Shown here: positions 36,446-45,303 of the stretch, one piece after another
How the letters are laid out: every line of letters starts with the position of its first letter
How positions within the stretch are numbered: position 1 is the stretch's first letter
NCBI GenBank assembly: GCA_903824045.1
Contig: CAIJVD010000037.1
Coordinates: 124,001 to 188,000 of the forward strand
Length of the DNA stretch: 64,000 nucleotides
Direction of reading: 5' to 3'
Origin: an uncultured Chlorobiaceae bacterium
GTDB lineage: Bacteria; Bacteroidota; Chlorobiia; Chlorobiales; Chlorobiaceae
Notes under the pieces: generated by a model
What the model was told of the DNA's origin: nothing
What the model saw: only the letters and a program-made list of their open reading frames with translations
Database searches by the model: none
Made by a program: the position numbers and the translations under genes

Positions 36446-36788
36446 GGCGATTGGTATTTAGTGGTTATGAAAAAAAAGAGAAAAATTGGTTCCGTATTTA
36501 TAACGGATTTTTATCAAGTTAAGATATTTTACTCTTCATAACAAATGGAAAAAAAGGGGGCGCAATCTTTCGGGATTTGACGCGCGATCACGCTTAGGCA
36601 ATGACTGGAGAGGAACCCTGAGGCACGCTTGGAGTGTAGCATCGTGGCCCGGTTGATACGAGTTTTTTGAGCGTTGGCGCTTCCTGTTACGCGTTTTTAT
36701 GTCATATATTGCGGTGAGGTGCCGTTTGTTTCTCGCTGTAACGGTATTCGGAATCGTCCGTGAACCGAAACATTATTACGTGCCAACA
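36446..36788. other. 343-bp AT-rich divergent intergenic region
   Basis: The region separates the chlorosome gene (minus) from the flavodoxin-PCP_red gene (plus) and must contain both promoters. I see a run of A/T-rich sequence next to the chlorosome start and a short TCCGT...ACGGA inverted repeat near 36493-36510, but no gene and no recognisable RNA. Confidence 0.5.
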
Positions 36789-37421
36789 ATGAAAGCGGTT
36801 ATTCTGTACGATAGCAGGTCATCAGGCGGCTCAACAGATGCGCTGATTGACTCCATAGGGTTGAAGCTTGTTGAGGCCGGCGTCTATGTTGAAAAGGCCC
36901 GATGCAAGGCCACGGCCGACTATGGCTTTGTCCGGGATTTTGATATTGTCATTCTCGGTGCCCCCGTCTACTATTTCTTTGTCTCTTCGCAGCTTCTGGG
37001 AGCTTTCGTACAGAGCAACCTCAAGGCCGCTCTCAGGAAAAAGAAGATTGCACTTTTTCTGACGTGCGGCAGTCCTGATGCGATGGCTACGGTGCTTTAC
37101 CTGCCACAGCTGAAAGTCCATTTGATCCGAAACAGGATTCTGGCTGAGAAGATTTTTGCGCCGGGTGATATTGGTGATGAGGATGTTGTTGAGTCGTTTG
37201 TTGAAGAGATTATTTACGAGTATGGCAAAACCGGGCGACACAAAGTGGCGCCACTTTCCGCCAAGTGGACGAGCGAGGCCGAGGATTGGCTTCAGGCCAT
37301 GCCTTCGTTTCTCCAGGAAAAGTTCAGGGGGATGGCTGAGAATTATGCGGAAGAGATGGGATGTGATGAAATTACGCTCAACATGCTCATGGATGCTCGA
37401 AACAAGCTTGGAGGCACATGA
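36789..37421 (+). CDS. Flavodoxin-like domain fused to a PCP_red domain
   Basis: A 210-aa protein with two parts. Residues 1-145 resemble a flavodoxin-like Rossmann domain: MKAVILYDSRSSGGSTDALID places a phosphate-binding loop after beta 1, followed by DIVILGAPVYYF and KKIALFLTCGSP. Residues 150-205 (KWTSEAEDWLQAMPSFLQEK ... ITLNMLMDARNKLG) match the PCP_red domain, the small C-terminal domain of the protochlorophyllide reductase subunits BchB/ChlB and some other proteins of phototrophs. The start is the ATG at 36789, since the upstream 30 codons carry nothing recognisable. Its exact role is unknown; a redox step linked to pigment synthesis is plausible. Confidence 0.72.
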   Translation: MKAVILYDSRSSGGSTDALIDSIGLKLVEAGVYVEKARCKATADYGFVRDFDIVILGAPVYYFFVSSQLLGAFVQSNLKAALRKKKIALFLTCGSPDAMATVLYLPQLKVHLIRNRILAEKIFAPGDIGDEDVVESFVEEIIYEYGKTGRHKVAPLSAKWTSEAEDWLQAMPSFLQEKFRGMAENYAEEMGCDEITLNMLMDARNKLGGT

Positions 37422-39025: not shown

Positions 39026-39048
39026 ATACCTATACGGGGTATAGGTAT
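39026..39048. promoter_or_regulatory. Perfect 10-3-10 palindrome, likely operator of the CsoR/CstR-family repressor
   Basis: ATACCTATAC and GTATAGGTAT flank GGG, ending 44 bp before the repressor ATG. CsoR and CstR tetramers bind G/C-centred, A/T-flanked palindromes of this kind that overlap their own promoters. The spacing and position fit autoregulation of the whole 39.1-45.3 kb operon. Confidence 0.8.
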
Positions 39049-39092
39049 TTCTCCGTTTTTATTTGATTCCCACAAGTTAACACGGAAATCCA

Positions 39093-39323
39093 ATGAAGGA
39101 TGTGATTCTCAGGCTCAAAAAGGTGGGTGGCCAGGTCGAAGGGCTGATCAGGATGATCGAGCGGGAGGAGGAGTGCGGCCAGATTATTACCCAGTTCCAG
39201 GCGGCGAAAGCTGCGCTCGACAACACCTTCTCGCTGGTGCTCCATCGCAATCTCAAGGAGTGCCTCAGCCATCGTGATGCGGACAGCGCTGAAAAGATTT
39301 TAAAACTCATCTCCAAACAGTAA
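39093..39323 (+). CDS. CsoR/FrmR-family repressor with CstR-like Cys-Asn-Cys positions
   Basis: A 76-aa all-helical DUF156 repressor, starting MKDVILRLKKVGGQVEGLIR. The family's sensing positions are Cys28 and Cys57, 29 residues apart as in CsoR and CstR. The position four before the second Cys, His in the copper sensor CsoR, is Asn53 here, within NLKEC. S. aureus CstR, a persulfide sensor, has NLIEC at this place. I therefore favour a per/polysulfide or thiol-reactive sensor over a Cu(I) sensor, with His51 as the only possible alternative ligand. Its stop codon abuts the ATG of the next gene (TAAATG), and a palindromic operator lies upstream. Confidence 0.82.
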   Translation: MKDVILRLKKVGGQVEGLIRMIEREEECGQIITQFQAAKAALDNTFSLVLHRNLKECLSHRDADSAEKILKLISKQ

Positions 39324-40655
39324 ATGACCATGAAGGTTTACAAGGCGTTTATCGGCTGTTGTCTTGCGGGTGCTCTCGGAGCTCCTTTGCAGGCTATAGG
39401 CGGCGAAAAAATAGTGAAGCTCTCTCTCTCCGAGGCCATTTCGATGGCGCGTGAAAACAACTATACCCTCAAGGCCGCCCGCAGCAGGGTTGAGCAGGCG
39501 GAGGCTCGGGTGGTGCAGAGCCGCCAGTCCTACCTGCCGAAGGTGACGTTTTCGGAGACCTTCCTGGTCACCAACGATCCCGGTGCTGCGCTGGTCTTCA
39601 AGCTGCAGCAGAAGACGCTTGTGGATTCGGATTTTATGGCTGCAAAGATGACCAATCCCGATCTGATCAACGATTTTAATACCTCTCTTCAGGTTATGCA
39701 GCCGATTTTCAATGCCGATGCTTCGGCAGGCAGAAAGATGGCAGTGACGGCCAAAAAGGCCAGCGAGTACATGGCGATGAGAACCGAGGAGGGCATCGCT
39801 CTGCAGGTGAGCAAGGTCTATTACGGGCTCATTCTGGCCGCCAAAAATATCGAAGCGGTCGATCAGTCGATCAGAACCATGCAGGGCCACAGCAATGATG
39901 CGGCAAAGGCCTACAGAGCGGGCATACTGACAAAATCCGACAAGCTCTCGACCGAGGTGAGGCTTTCAGAGCTTCAGGAGCAGAAGCTCATGCTGCAGGA
40001 CGAGATCCGCAATGCAACCGACGCGCTCAAGGTGATGCTTCGTCTCGACGGGGCAGTGAGTATTGTTCCGACCGGCGAACTCTCGGTTGAGAGTGTTCTG
40101 CCGGGAGGCGAGAGTGCCACTGTTTCCGAGAACAGGGCGGATCTCAAGGCGCTTGAAACCTGGCGTGATGTTGCTCTCAACCAGGAGGAGATGGTGAAAG
40201 CCTCAAGGCTTCCCCGCCTGAACGCATTTGCCCAGAGCAACCTGCACAGCGCAACTGTTCTTAACGGCGGTTCGAGCTGGACGGTAGGATTGAACATGCA
40301 GTGGAACATCTATGACGGAATGGCCACAGCCGGCCGGATTCAGGAGGCCAGGGCCCAGGAGCAGGAGGCGATGTACGGCTACGAAGCGGCAAAGAGCGGA
40401 AGTATGGCTGAGGCAGAAAAAGCGCTCAGGTCGCTGAAGACTGCAAGGACAAGGATTGCCGGTGCCCAGAAGTCGCTTGAGGAGGCCAGGGTGAGTCTCG
40501 ATTTTATCGGTGAACAGTTCAGAACGGGAATGGCTATGACCTTTGAGCTTCTGATGAGGGAGCAGGCATACACCTATTCGAAAATGAGGCTCAACCAGGC
40601 AAAATATGATTATTGCGTGGCCAGGAGCGAGCTCTCATTCTATCGCGGCAACTGA
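39324..40655 (+). CDS. TolC-family outer membrane efflux protein
   Basis: A 443-aa protein with a signal peptide (about residues 1-24, ending LQAIGG) and two OEP repeats. The helical hairpin signature appears as LSEAISMARENNYTLKAARSRVEQAEARV near residue 33 (shown across the motif) and again in AEKALRSLKTARTRIAG near 355, with the strand segments FSETFLVTNDPG and WTVGLNMQWNIYDGMATAG. It is the outer-membrane duct of the tripartite pump formed with the adaptor and RND permease encoded downstream. It is translationally adjacent to the repressor gene. Confidence 0.88.
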   Translation: MTMKVYKAFIGCCLAGALGAPLQAIGGEKIVKLSLSEAISMARENNYTLKAARSRVEQAEARVVQSRQSYLPKVTFSETFLVTNDPGAALVFKLQQKTLVDSDFMAAKMTNPDLINDFNTSLQVMQPIFNADASAGRKMAVTAKKASEYMAMRTEEGIALQVSKVYYGLILAAKNIEAVDQSIRTMQGHSNDAAKAYRAGILTKSDKLSTEVRLSELQEQKLMLQDEIRNATDALKVMLRLDGAVSIVPTGELSVESVLPGGESATVSENRADLKALETWRDVALNQEEMVKASRLPRLNAFAQSNLHSATVLNGGSSWTVGLNMQWNIYDGMATAGRIQEARAQEQEAMYGYEAAKSGSMAEAEKALRSLKTARTRIAGAQKSLEEARVSLDFIGEQFRTGMAMTFELLMREQAYTYSKMRLNQAKYDYCVARSELSFYRGN

Positions 40656-40696
40656 GGGGCTTGTAAATAATAAGCGTTAATCAATCTGATCGTGTA

Positions 40697-41113
40697 ATGC
40701 ATTTAAGAAATAAACTTTTTCTGCTCCCGGCCCTGCTTCCCCTGTTTTTCACAGGGTGCGGCCCTCACGAGCCGCTCCCTGCAAAGTCAGGAAGCCCTGT
40801 GTCGACGGTTGCCGTTGAGAGCATCGTTCCTGTTCGTTCGTCCGGACATGCTCCGGCAGCAGAGGAACTCCTGGTGCCGAAGTCGGCGATTTTCATGAAA
40901 GGTGATCTTGAGGGTGTTCTGGTTGTCGGTGCCGGCGACCTGATTTCAGTGCGATGGATCAGGACTGGTCGGTCGTTGAATGGTGACCGGGTTGTTCTCG
41001 GTGGTCTTGAAAAGGGTGAACTCGTGGTAGGGAAATACAGTGCCGCGATTAATGAAGGAGTAACCGTAAAAAAGAGTCCGCGTGTGACAGAGGAGAAGAA
41101 TACTAATGAATGA
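40697..41113 (+). CDS. Very short periplasmic adaptor-like lipoprotein (mini membrane fusion protein)
   Basis: A 138-aa lipoprotein: hydrophobic N-terminus and lipobox LPLFFTGC with Cys21, then about 100 residues. The segment LVPKSAIFMKGDLEGVLVV ... WIRTGRSLNGDRVVLGGLEKGELVV (near 58-115) matches the membrane-proximal domain of RND membrane fusion proteins. The lipoyl domain, the alpha-helical hairpin and most of the beta-barrel domain of a normal 350-400-aa adaptor are absent. The DNA around it is intact, and the gene overlaps the RND start by 8 bp, so this looks like a genuine short form, not a recent truncation. Confidence 0.75.
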   Translation: MHLRNKLFLLPALLPLFFTGCGPHEPLPAKSGSPVSTVAVESIVPVRSSGHAPAAEELLVPKSAIFMKGDLEGVLVVGAGDLISVRWIRTGRSLNGDRVVLGGLEKGELVVGKYSAAINEGVTVKKSPRVTEEKNTNE

Positions 41114-44100
41114 AGGAATTGCAGGTAAACTCGCCAAACAGTTTATCAATTCAAAGATCACGCCGCTCCTGATGATGGCGGCGCTGCTTGTCGGCATCAT
41201 GGCGACGTTCATGACTCCCAGAGAGGAGGAGCCGCAGATCGTTGTGCCAATGGTCGATATCTATATCCCGTTGCCCGGAGCGACTCCCGCTGAAATAGAG
41301 GCTCGTGTCGCAAAGCCGGTCGAGCGCACCCTGACCGAGATTCCCGGAGTCGATTATGTCTACTCCACTGCCATGCCGGATGTTGCGCTGGTAACCGTCC
41401 GCTACAAGGTCGGCGAGGATGCGGAGAAGAGCATGGTGAAGCTCTGGTCGACCCTCATGAAGAATATGGACAAGATGCCGCAGGGCGCCGGGTTTCCATT
41501 CATGAAGAAGGTCTCCATTGACGATGTGCCGGTGCTCAACCTTACCTTCTGGAGCAAGGATAAAGACCCCTACCAGATCCGCCAGACTGCCACGCAGGTT
41601 GCTGACGAGCTGAAAAAGGTCAAGAATATCGGCGATGTTGAAATCAAGGGTGGACAGCGCCGCCAGGTACGCATCATGCTCGACAAGGCGAAACTCCAGC
41701 ACTTCAATGTAAGTCCGCTGCAGATTGCCCGGCAGATTCAGCAGACCAACAGCCAGATGACCTCGGGCGATTTCAGGCAGGTGAACCAGGAGATCGTTGT
41801 TCGCACAGGAAAGTTCCTTGAAAACGCGGCCGACGTATCCAATATCGTTGTCGGTATCTATGGTGCCTCTCCGGTCTACCTCCGTGACGTTGCCTCAATA
41901 GTTGACGGGCCTGAAGAGGTTAACAACTACAGCTTCTTCGGCTTTGCCGCTGCAGCTCCGAAGGGATCCCCCTCGGGCGAGTATCCGGCGGTGACGCTGA
42001 CGGTTGCCAAGCGCAAGGGTGGCGACGCTTCGGTGCTGGCCGGGAAGGTGATGGAGAAGGTTGAGACCATGAAGAAGAGCATTATCCCTGCGGATATTAC
42101 GGTCAGCGAAACCAGGAATTACGGCGCTACCGCATCCGAAAAGGTTTTCACCCTTCTCGAGCATCTGCTTATGGCCGTCGTGGCCGTAACGGTTGTTGTC
42201 GGATTCTTTCTTGGCTGGAGGGGCTCTCTTGTGGTGCTGGCGTCGGTGCCGATCACCTTTGCCCTCACCCTTCTGATCTACTACCTGCTTGATTATTCGC
42301 TCAACAGGGTCACCCTTTTCGCTCTGATCTTTGTGACCGGTATTGTTGTCGATGACTCGATCATCATAGCCGAGAACATTCACCGGCACTTTGCCATGAA
42401 GCGGCAGCCGAAGCTGCAGGCGGCCATTACGGCCATCAGCGAGGTGGGCAACCCGACCATTCTGGCAACCTTTACCGTTATCGCGGCTGTGCTGCCGATG
42501 GTCTTCGTCTCCGGTCTGATGGGCCCATACATGAGCCCGATGCCTATTGGCGCTTCGCTGGCCATGATATTCTCGTTGCTTGTTGCCCTTATTGCAACCC
42601 CCTGGCTCTCCTTCCGTCTTCTGAAGAGTGGTGATGACGGCCATCATGAAGAGTACGATATTACCAAGAGCGGCTACTACAAGCTGTTCAACACCGTTCT
42701 TACCCCCTTCATCGACAGCAGCTTCAAGAGATGGATGGCCTTCGGTGTGGTCGGTCTCATGCTTGCCGGTGCCATTGCCATGGTGCCCTTGAAGGCTGTG
42801 CAGATGAAGATGCTGCCGTTCGACAACAAGAACGAGTTCCAGGTTATTCTTGACATGCCGGAAGGTACCTCGCTGGAGCAGACCTCAAGAGTTGCCAAGG
42901 AGATTTCCGGTTACCTGAAAAGTGTTCCGGAGGTTCAGAGCTATCAGTACTATGCGGGCGTCAATGCGCCGATCAACTTTAACGGCCTTGTGCGTCACTA
43001 CTACCTGCGTCAGAAGGCCAACATGGCCGACATCCAGGTGAACCTTGTTCACAAGGGTGAGCGCAAGGCGCAGAGCCATGATATCGCCAAGCGGGTCAGG
43101 GCTGGTGTGCAGGAGATTGCCAGGCGCTACAATGGCAATGCCAAGATCGTTGAAATTCCTCCGGGACCTCCGGTGCTCTCTACGCTTGTCGCCGAGATTT
43201 ACGGTCCTTCACAGTCGGAGCAGATCGCGCTGGCAAAGCAGGTGAAGCAGGTGTTTGAGTCTACTCCCGGCGTTGTCGATGTCGACTGGATGGTCGAAGA
43301 GGACCAGAAGGTCTACAATCTCGTGGTCAACAAAGAGCGTGCGGCTGCCCGCGGCGTCAGCGCCGAGCAGATCGCCCAGACGCTCCGCATGTCGATCGCA
43401 GGCATGGATGTCGGCCTTCTCCATACCGAAAACGGCCATGACCCGGTCACCATTCAGGTGCGCCTGCCGCAGTCCGCAAGAAGCTCCCGCCAGGATCTCT
43501 CCGGGATCTTTGTCCAGTCTCAGGGAATGGGAAGCCTGACCTCCCGCCTTCGTGCCGGCCAGATGATTCCCCTTTCTGAACTGGTGAGGGTTGAGGAGAA
43601 GGTTCAGGACAAGAGCATTTTCCACAAGGATTTGCAGCGGGTGGTATACGTGACTGCCGATGTTGCCGGAGCGACAGAGAGCCCGGTATATGCCATGCTC
43701 GACATGGACAAGAAAATCCAGAAGCTCAAGGTTCCCGGCGGCTACTCGGTCAATCCGCTCTACACGGCAAATCCTGCGAACGAGGAGAAGCTCGCCATGA
43801 AGTGGGATGGTGAGTGGCAGATCACCTTCGAGGTGTTCAGGGATCTTGGTACAGCTTTTGCCGTTGTTCTGGTGATCATCTATCTGCTCATTATCGGCTG
43901 GTTCCAGTCGTTCAAGACCCCGCTGATCATGATGATCGCCATTCCGCTCAGCCTTGTCGGCATCATTCCCGGCCACTGGTTGCACGGCGCGTTCTTTACC
44001 GCAACCAGCATGATCGGCATGATCGCCCTTGCCGGCATCATGGTGCGAAACTCGGTGCTGCTCATCGACTTCATCCAGATCCGCAGGGCGGAGGGCGCCG

Positions 44101-44315
44101 GGCTCAAGCAGGCCGTCATCGAGTCGGCCGCAGTCCGCACACGCCCGATTATCCTGACCTCAGGGGCGGTCGTCATTGGCTCTGTGGTAATGCTTTTCGA
44201 CCCGATCTTCCAGGGTCTGGCGATCTCGCTGATCTGGGGCGGTGTGCTCTCAACCATCCTGACGCTTGTGGTGGTGCCGCTTGTTTACTATATGGCCGAA
44301 AAGAAATCCAATTAA
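41106..44315 (+). CDS. RND efflux permease (AcrB/MdtB-like, HAE class)
   Basis: A 1069-aa inner-membrane pump with twelve expected membrane segments and two large periplasmic loops. The first segment is followed by PREEEPQIVVPMVDI, and the proton relay carries GIVVDDSIIIAENIH near residue 415, with the second-half match GIMVRNSVLLIDFIQ near 980. It exports a substrate to the TolC partner using proton motive force. The DD pair and overall length match hydrophobe/amphiphile pumps rather than the heavy-metal CzcA class. The actual cargo is unknown. The start overlaps the adaptor gene by 8 bp. Confidence 0.92.
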   Translation: MNEGIAGKLAKQFINSKITPLLMMAALLVGIMATFMTPREEEPQIVVPMVDIYIPLPGATPAEIEARVAKPVERTLTEIPGVDYVYSTAMPDVALVTVRYKVGEDAEKSMVKLWSTLMKNMDKMPQGAGFPFMKKVSIDDVPVLNLTFWSKDKDPYQIRQTATQVADELKKVKNIGDVEIKGGQRRQVRIMLDKAKLQHFNVSPLQIARQIQQTNSQMTSGDFRQVNQEIVVRTGKFLENAADVSNIVVGIYGASPVYLRDVASIVDGPEEVNNYSFFGFAAAAPKGSPSGEYPAVTLTVAKRKGGDASVLAGKVMEKVETMKKSIIPADITVSETRNYGATASEKVFTLLEHLLMAVVAVTVVVGFFLGWRGSLVVLASVPITFALTLLIYYLLDYSLNRVTLFALIFVTGIVVDDSIIIAENIHRHFAMKRQPKLQAAITAISEVGNPTILATFTVIAAVLPMVFVSGLMGPYMSPMPIGASLAMIFSLLVALIATPWLSFRLLKSGDDGHHEEYDITKSGYYKLFNTVLTPFIDSSFKRWMAFGVVGLMLAGAIAMVPLKAVQMKMLPFDNKNEFQVILDMPEGTSLEQTSRVAKEISGYLKSVPEVQSYQYYAGVNAPINFNGLVRHYYLRQKANMADIQVNLVHKGERKAQSHDIAKRVRAGVQEIARRYNGNAKIVEIPPGPPVLSTLVAEIYGPSQSEQIALAKQVKQVFESTPGVVDVDWMVEEDQKVYNLVVNKERAAARGVSAEQIAQTLRMSIAGMDVGLLHTENGHDPVTIQVRLPQSARSSRQDLSGIFVQSQGMGSLTSRLRAGQMIPLSELVRVEEKVQDKSIFHKDLQRVVYVTADVAGATESPVYAMLDMDKKIQKLKVPGGYSVNPLYTANPANEEKLAMKWDGEWQITFEVFRDLGTAFAVVLVIIYLLIIGWFQSFKTPLIMMIAIPLSLVGIIPGHWLHGAFFTATSMIGMIALAGIMVRNSVLLIDFIQIRRAEGAGLKQAVIESAAVRTRPIILTSGAVVIGSVVMLFDPIFQGLAISLIWGGVLSTILTLVVVPLVYYMAEKKSN

Positions 44316-44336
44316 TTTTCCAGAGGAGCAGATGCG

Positions 44337-44645
44337 ATGAAATTTCTTGCTATCATGGGACATGAGGAGACGCGCCCGAAAGTGCGCGCTCTTTTCAAAG
44401 AGCATCAGGTGATGATGTTCAGCAGTTTTGACATCATGGGGTGTAACTGCGAAAAAAAAGGTGCCGAGCCTCAGGCCTGGTTTCCTGCGGTCGAGATGCC
44501 CGGAGCCTATTCAACGCTCTGTTTCGCCATTCTCGACGATGACAGGGCGGAGGTAATCATGCGTGAACTGGAGAGGAACCCTATTGCTGTTGACAAGGAG
44601 TTTCCGGCAAGGGCGTTTCTGATGAATGTGGAAAAAACAGCCTGA
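44337..44645 (+). CDS. Small PII-like/ferredoxin-like-fold protein of the RND operon
   Basis: A 102-aa protein behind a good GAGGAG ribosome-binding site. The predicted order is strand (MKFLAIMGHE), helix (RPKVRALFKEHQ), strand (VMMFSSFDIMG), a Cys-rich loop GCNCEKK, strand (YSTLCFAILDDD), helix (RAEVIMRELERN) and strand (RAFLMNVEK). This beta-alpha-beta-beta-alpha-beta order is that of PII-like and CutA-like trimers. The CxC in the loop could bind metal or be persulfidated. I recognise no named family. It is transcribed between the pump and the MBL gene and could regulate or modulate the pump. Confidence 0.65.
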   Translation: MKFLAIMGHEETRPKVRALFKEHQVMMFSSFDIMGCNCEKKGAEPQAWFPAVEMPGAYSTLCFAILDDDRAEVIMRELERNPIAVDKEFPARAFLMNVEKTA

Positions 44646-44661
44646 AAACAGGAGGGGGGCG

Positions 44662-45303
44662 ATGAAGGTCCAGCAGTTCAGTACGGGGGGCGACAGGAAC
44701 TTCGCCTACCTTGTCGCCGATGAAGTGTCTGCTGAAGCGCTCGTCATCGACCCCTCCTACAATCCAGCCGTGATCGTTCGTTTTGCGGCCGATCACGGTT
44801 TTGTTATACGCTATGTTTTCTCGACCCACTCGCACCCTGACCACACTAACGGCAACGACGCCATCGCCCGAATGACCGGCCTTGTGCCCCTGCTCTATGG
44901 TGACAGTTGTTCCCGCACAGGGATAAGGGTTCAGGATGGTGCGCACTTTCCTCTCGGCTCGCTCCAGGCAACCATTATCCACACCCCCGGTCACACTCCG
45001 GACTCCATCTGTATTCTCTGCGGTGAGGCGCTCTTTACCGGCGACACCCTTTTTACGGGAAAGGTTGGCGGTACCCGCACCGAGAGAGAGTCTATCGAGG
45101 AGTACAACTCCCTTCACCTTCGCCTCATGGCGCTTCCCGATGAGACAAAAGTCTATCCCGGACACGATTACGGTAGCTCTTCAAGCTCCTCAATCGGTCG
45201 TGAGCGCAGAACAAATCCCTTTCTTCTTCAGCCGGATATCGCGGCATTTCTCTCCCTGAAGCTGAACTGGGCGGAGTACAAAAAACAGCACGGTATTGCA
45301 TGA
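44662..45303 (+). CDS. MBL-fold hydrolase, glyoxalase II / persulfide dioxygenase-like
   Basis: A 213-aa metallo-beta-lactamase-fold enzyme with THSHPDHTNG near residue 54 (HxHxDH), TPGHTPDSI near 111, LFTGDTLF near 130 and VYPGHDYG near 168. The stretch after it, IGRERRTNPFL, is of the kind found in persulfide dioxygenases (ETHE1) and some glyoxalase II enzymes. The start at 44662 has an excellent GGAGGGGGG ribosome-binding site. As last gene of the CstR-like operon it could oxidise or hydrolyse a thiol or persulfide conjugate such as glutathione-like persulfide. Which of these it does is not decided by the sequence. Confidence 0.82.
   Translation: MKVQQFSTGGDRNFAYLVADEVSAEALVIDPSYNPAVIVRFAADHGFVIRYVFSTHSHPDHTNGNDAIARMTGLVPLLYGDSCSRTGIRVQDGAHFPLGSLQATIIHTPGHTPDSICILCGEALFTGDTLFTGKVGGTRTERESIEEYNSLHLRLMALPDETKVYPGHDYGSSSSSSIGRERRTNPFLLQPDIAAFLSLKLNWAEYKKQHGIA

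Follow-up and report, generated by a model that had tools for sequence, protein, structure and literature searches.

A CstR-like repressor and its conserved operator precede an RND efflux operon, a probable reactive-sulfur response of Chlorobiaceae

Introduction

Six genes lie head to tail at positions 39093-45303 of a 64-kb stretch of Chlorobiaceae DNA (the window), and they raise the question of what a small CsoR-family repressor controls when the genes behind it encode an RND efflux pump. A preliminary description of this DNA had listed a repressor, a TolC channel, a short adaptor, an RND permease, a PII-like protein and an MBL-fold enzyme. We found each of these parts in its place (Table 1), and searches with Pfam and NCBIfam confirmed the families as CsoR-family, OEP, ACR_tran and Lactamase_B, with a C-terminal RND_mfp match in the adaptor. 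The host genome, which we assign to Chlorobium from the relatives found, measures 2.09 Mb, is 99.96% complete and encodes a single CsoR-family protein.

Table 1. Features of the operon and its control region, in window coordinates.
Feature	Position	Strand	Evidence
Repressor operator ATACCTATACGGGGTATAGGTAT, predicted 23-bp palindrome	39026..39048	.	Conserved upstream of repressor genes; matrix score
CstR-like CsoR/DUF156-family repressor, 76 aa, C28/N53/C57	39093..39323	+	PF02583; nearest PDB; residues; tree
TolC-family outer-membrane channel, 443 aa	39324..40655	+	PF02321
Minimal RND adaptor, 138 aa: lipobox Cys and membrane-proximal domain only	40697..41113	+	RND_mfp; AcrA segments; fold match
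RND permease, 1069 aa	41106..44315	+	PF00873, 532.9 bits
PII-like protein, 102 aa, invariant C36, C38, C62	44337..44645	+	Alignment; AlphaFold model
Putative MBL-fold hydrolase, glyoxalase II type, 213 aa, without GRTDFQ motif	44662..45303	+	Pfam; PDB ranking; motif; tree

Results

The gene order of the operon is kept in dozens of Chlorobium and Chlorobaculum loci, where the CBS-domain gene and the succinate dehydrogenase flavoprotein gene found 3' of the operon here are usual as well. Relatives at the level of the order carry genes for TolC, a full-length adaptor, the RND pump and the PII-like protein, without the repressor and without the MBL gene; the short adaptor and the CstR-like control therefore look like a Chlorobiaceae innovation.

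Two observations concern the surroundings of such loci. At what we take to be the ancestral site in one genome (locus L002, 592-1728; G007, contig C45), a repressor copy adjoins a PII-like fragment and an MBL gene, and the full operon with SQR genes sits on a different contig, which looks like a relocation that left a remnant. In the window itself, positions 36699-37421 encode a protein that fuses a flavodoxin-like domain to a PCP_red domain, a domain that is otherwise terminal in protochlorophyllide reductase subunit B.

The repressor matches PF02583 at 71.7 bits (cut-off 22.8), which places it in the CsoR/DUF156 fold family. The residues on which the preliminary description had built its assignment (Cys28, Asn53, Cys57 and an NLKEC stretch) are all present. 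Cys28 and Cys57 are invariant across 40 relatives and align with Staphylococcus CstR, the pair being equivalent to Cys31/Cys60 of the S. aureus protein; position 53 in the relatives is mostly Asn, in some Ser or Asp, and never His. We aligned the repressor with CsoR, CstR, FrmR and RcnR references, as had been suggested, and found His at the position aligned with 53 in CsoR, InrS, FrmR, RcnR and a homologue adjoining a metal ATPase gene, and Asn in the annotated Staphylococcus CstR, the 7mq1 chain and two plasmid homologues near TusA/DsrE or rhodanese genes. The repressor thus departs from the Cys-His-Cys Cu(I) ligand set of CsoR at position 53 and from the FrmR/RcnR pattern (His53, non-Cys57) at both positions, and its N53/C57 pattern sides with CstR. 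The nearest solved structures, by sequence and by profile, are 7mq1, 7mq2 and 7mq3; their PDB label is 'csoR', and a review names 7MQ2 as CstR (PMC9774590). In the tree the repressor falls on the CstR side with support of 87/85, a moderate value in view of the protein's small size.

Upstream of the repressor gene lies a predicted operator, ATACCTATACGGGGTATAGGTAT, with perfect 10-bp arms around a 3-bp GGG spacer. Scored with a matrix derived from Chlorobiaceae operators, it reaches 40.7 bits, and the next unrelated site in the 64 kb reaches 2.9. The operator precedes the repressor gene in nearly every Chlorobiaceae relative, mostly by 50 to 90 bases, and its ATACC-N5-GGGTAT core also occurs in the cstA-cstR intergenic region of Staphylococcus. 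A pattern search allowing up to 2 mismatches returned this single site in the host genome, and a sigma-70 promoter scan at the operator returned nothing.

The same pattern search across 26 genomes revealed extra operator copies in many congeners, while the reversed control pattern gave almost none. These further copies mostly stand immediately 5' of one single-domain rhodanese gene: a strong operator lies within 250 bases upstream in 20 of 24 distinct rhodanese upstream regions, and those 20 score 31.8-40.6 bits against a random-window median of -15. In several genomes the rhodanese gene diverges from the repressor gene, with one operator common to both. Altogether, 872 kb of scanned sequence held 52 strong sites, and every one whose neighbours we examined precedes a repressor, rhodanese or cytochrome c gene; the loci were collected via the PII-like gene or the operator itself, so that these frequencies are biased. 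The C. ferrooxidans group takes the association further. Its operon has no MBL gene and runs on into SQR genes, the order in strain DSM 13031 being rhodanese, operator, repressor-TolC-adaptor-RND-PII, OsmC-like, SQR-like, SQR; the 484-aa SQR of C. ferrooxidans matches solved SQRs at 1e-35. A CstR-type regulon joining a sulfurtransferase to sulfide-oxidation genes is therefore found in the relatives and is absent from the present genome. Since sulfur-handling enzymes of the relatives stand under the same DNA switch, the operon is probably a reactive-sulfur response. Together, the residues, the CstR structures, the conserved operator and the links to rhodanese and SQR make the repressor half of this reading well supported, and the proposal that the repressor is CstR-like rather than CsoR-like is borne out by residues, nearest structures and tree and, independently, by the regulon.

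Some relatives vary this arrangement. Tandem double repressor copies occur in several genomes (locus L007, 1501-2120; L034, L036, L042 and L043), and in L007, L023, L036 and L042 the operator is degenerate at the first copy and strong at the second. At two loci (L112, 3310-3762; L044, 7722-8125) the operator adjoins a gene for a small c-type cytochrome, a possible third member of the regulon; OsmC-like and SQR-like genes lie alongside in L112.

The preliminary description had taken the host for a sulfide-oxidising organism, and here our searches failed to secure the claim. DsrA is absent from the genome (80 bits against a cut-off of 393, with nine congeners above 500), and FCSD, a Chlorobium-type SQR and the rhodanese of the regulon were not found in it; other SQR types were searched with one further query. 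These gaps count against a reading in terms of sulfur. The genome may belong to a non-sulfur-oxidising Chlorobium. Much of its machinery for sulfide oxidation seems to be gone, yet it keeps the operon, and a role in protection therefore fits better than one in energy metabolism.

The RND permease is 76-89% identical across the family. Its closest plasmid-borne homologues, found in Bacteroidota, cyanobacteria and Proteobacteria, share 39-53% identity with it, and in 7 of 11 annotated plasmid loci the pump gene adjoins SQR-like, rhodanese or ArsR genes; the four loci without such neighbours are from Flammeovirga, Vibrio (only a DUF2892 gene), Polaromonas and Shinella. None of four distant RND controls has neighbours of these kinds. 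One ArsR gene from a plasmid locus scored 97.5 bits against the BigR model, under the cut-off of 155, and a search of the plasmids for the PII-like gene gave no match. RND pumps have already been noted beside ArsR-type sulfane-sulfur repressors (PMC12423496). In Azospira, both Bar-seq and high expression during H2S oxidation point to an RND-SQR operon, and its deletion left the rate of H2S oxidation unchanged (PMC5358917), so that a pump of this kind would serve tolerance and not oxidation.

The PII-like protein gave no Pfam P-II match above threshold. Its AlphaFold model (pLDDT 79) is consistent with a PII fold, the top PDB matches in Foldseek being mostly GlnK/PII at a TM of about 0.6. The invariant C36-x-C38 and C62 mark a family that has no Pfam entry and whose homologues also neighbour RND pumps in further families of Bacteroidota.

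These features bear on a metal reading of the locus, according to which the repressor would sense Cu(I) or another soft metal, the RND pump would export metal, and the PII-like protein would be a CutA1/PII-NG-type modulator that uses its Cys36-x-Cys38 and Cys62 thiols. CsoR is the archetype of the repressor family, soft-metal and sulfide chemistry interact, and the cysteines of the PII-like protein are invariant; moreover, PII-type proteins adjoin RND pumps known for metal export too, PII-NG proteins clustering with CzcABC pumps, for instance in Geobacter (PMC7726332). Against this, His is found at position 53 in none of the relatives, and multidrug RND models fit the pump much better (441 bits) than CusA/CzcA does (278 bits). 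The operon genes include neither a copper ATPase nor a chaperone, as had been claimed before, and the co-regulated genes are those for rhodanese and SQR. We therefore regard metal efflux as rather unlikely.

The adaptor is unusually short. It keeps a lipobox cysteine and matches RND_mfp at positions 251-320 of 322, and two of its segments align to AcrA 11-52 and 302-384; since only these two align, the region between them, with barrel, lipoyl domain and hairpin, is missing. Its model matches the fold of the MexA/AcrA membrane-proximal domain, the one domain left of the full tripartite-adaptor set (hairpin, lipoyl, barrel and membrane-proximal). A frameshifted adaptor was rejected as an explanation: the short form is intact family-wide and under selection. 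From the sequences, the shortening is a real, conserved reduction. One could still suppose that the pump is decaying, leaving the adaptor as a vestige and the genes for repressor, PII-like protein and MBL enzyme as the only ones that matter, because the adaptor lacks domains that order-level relatives have and evolves faster than the pump. This is very improbable: over 30 relatives have an intact short adaptor of 124-143 aa, its median pairwise dN/dS is about 0.35, and the RND permease is conserved at the identities given above. A pump with a hairpin-less adaptor may be unable to bridge to TolC. The genome has further adaptors of full length, and help from them in trans is therefore possible.

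The last gene had been described as glyoxalase II/ETHE1-like. The overall similarity stands: the protein has all seven metal ligands (HHDHHDH), which do not discriminate, and the PDB ranking favours persulfide dioxygenases. Beyond that, the ETHE1 likeness did not hold. GRTDFQ follows the metal-bridging Asp in four solved chains of dioxygenase type (4ysb, 9rhq, 8zbd and 4chl), and GGT stands in its place in all Chlorobiaceae rows compared; in the tree the protein groups with glyoxalase II (support 85/82, a weak grouping). The missing motif and this placement speak against a persulfide dioxygenase. Such a dioxygenase needs O2, which the strict anaerobes of the Chlorobiaceae seldom meet. Against curated GloB the protein scores 105 bits (cut-off 200.8) over positions 9-169 of 248, and the C-terminal helical domain of GloB is absent. 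It is thus a putative glyoxalase II-like hydrolase.

That assignment also suits a general thiol-stress or electrophile operon, in which a dithiol repressor would sense disulfide stress or electrophiles, drugs or lipophilic conjugates of thiols would be the pump's cargo, and the hydrolase would handle glyoxal-type thioesters. The nearest solved RND pumps are of the multidrug type, and the sulfide-oxidation genes tested for are missing from the genome. We nonetheless judge this reading unlikely, for the regulon of the relatives comprises rhodanese and SQR rather than aldehyde or drug genes, homologues of the pump in other bacteria lie near SQR and rhodanese genes, and FrmR differs from the repressor at position 53 and at the second cysteine.

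Discussion

Our results favour a sulfane-sulfur-responsive, CstR-type repressor that governs a pump operon for the removal of reactive sulfur. We propose that the product of the gene at 39093 binds the operator and so would silence its own operon, and that the DNA would be released once a persulfide or polysulfide, as reactive sulfane sulfur, links Cys28 to the Cys57 of a second subunit. Induction would then supply the RND pump, the TolC channel and the minimal adaptor; the PII-like protein may tune the pump; and pump and glyoxalase II-like hydrolase would rid the cell of reactive sulfur species or of adducts that these form. The same repressor would also control the rhodanese in many relatives, one group of which has SQR genes within the operon. 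We consider this explanation as a whole reasonably likely, with greater confidence in the repressor taken alone and less in the cargo of the pump. A CsoR-like sulfur regulator of Thermus, TTHA1953, showed no response to NaHS (PMC10318464), which counts against it.

A bolder version would see the pump as devoted to the export of sulfane sulfur or polysulfide from green sulfur bacteria, with a membrane-proximal-only adaptor and with gating by the thiol-bearing PII-like protein. To our knowledge, the export route of extracellular sulfur globules is unsettled; in SQR-bearing relatives, such a pump would take polysulfide through the outer membrane and thereby help to form the globules. We offer this as a speculation that we think improbable.

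Control of the CstR type, known from the cst operons of Gram-positive bacteria, would with this locus reach a family of Gram-negative phototrophs, where its output would be an RND pump. The locus also provides a concrete candidate for the handling or export of reactive sulfur in green sulfur bacteria. In addition, an adaptor that lacks hairpin, lipoyl and barrel domains and is nonetheless conserved calls into question the usual docking model of RND-TolC systems. With rhodanese, repressor-pump operon and SQR adjacent to one another, C. ferrooxidans DSM 13031 is a named strain in which the reading as a reactive-sulfur response can be tested.

The preliminary description knew of no system of this exact make-up, and a literature search joining persulfide, 'RND efflux' and CsoR found no paper. 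Because RND pumps beside ArsR-type repressors (PMC12423496) and an RND-SQR operon (PMC5358917) are on record, the claim of novelty has to be narrowed. In the sulfane-sulfur regulons of BigR, SqrR and sHdrR (PMC12423496) and in the plasmid loci, an RND pump, homologous to ours in the latter, likewise lies near rhodanese and SQR-like genes; these loci differ in their ArsR-family sensor, in adaptors mostly annotated at normal length and in having no annotated PII-like neighbour. The Azospira suillum genes Dsui_3440-3443 (PMC5358917), which we liken by description and not by sequence, also unite an RND pump and SQR in one operon, with high expression under H2S oxidation. PII-NG with CzcABC (PMC7726332) shares the PII-type gene within an RND operon; there, however, the pump is a metal pump, whereas the PII-like protein here has conserved cysteines of its own and no Pfam P-II match. 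BesA of Borrelia is likewise an RND adaptor without the alpha-hairpin, but it keeps the lipoyl and barrel domains, both of which are missing here as well (PMC3807786).

Closest in control are the cst operons of Staphylococcus (CstR, CstA, CstB, SQR, TauE), which share with the Chlorobiaceae a CsoR-family repressor with C/N/C residues, a regulon of sulfurtransferase and SQR, and the ATACC-N5-GGGTAT operator core. Here, in contrast, the CstB-type dioxygenase is absent, the host is a phototrophic anaerobe, a PII-like protein is present, and transport falls to an RND-TolC pump in place of TauE. What is left of the claim is narrower: the operon is a new variant among CstR-type reactive-sulfur regulons.
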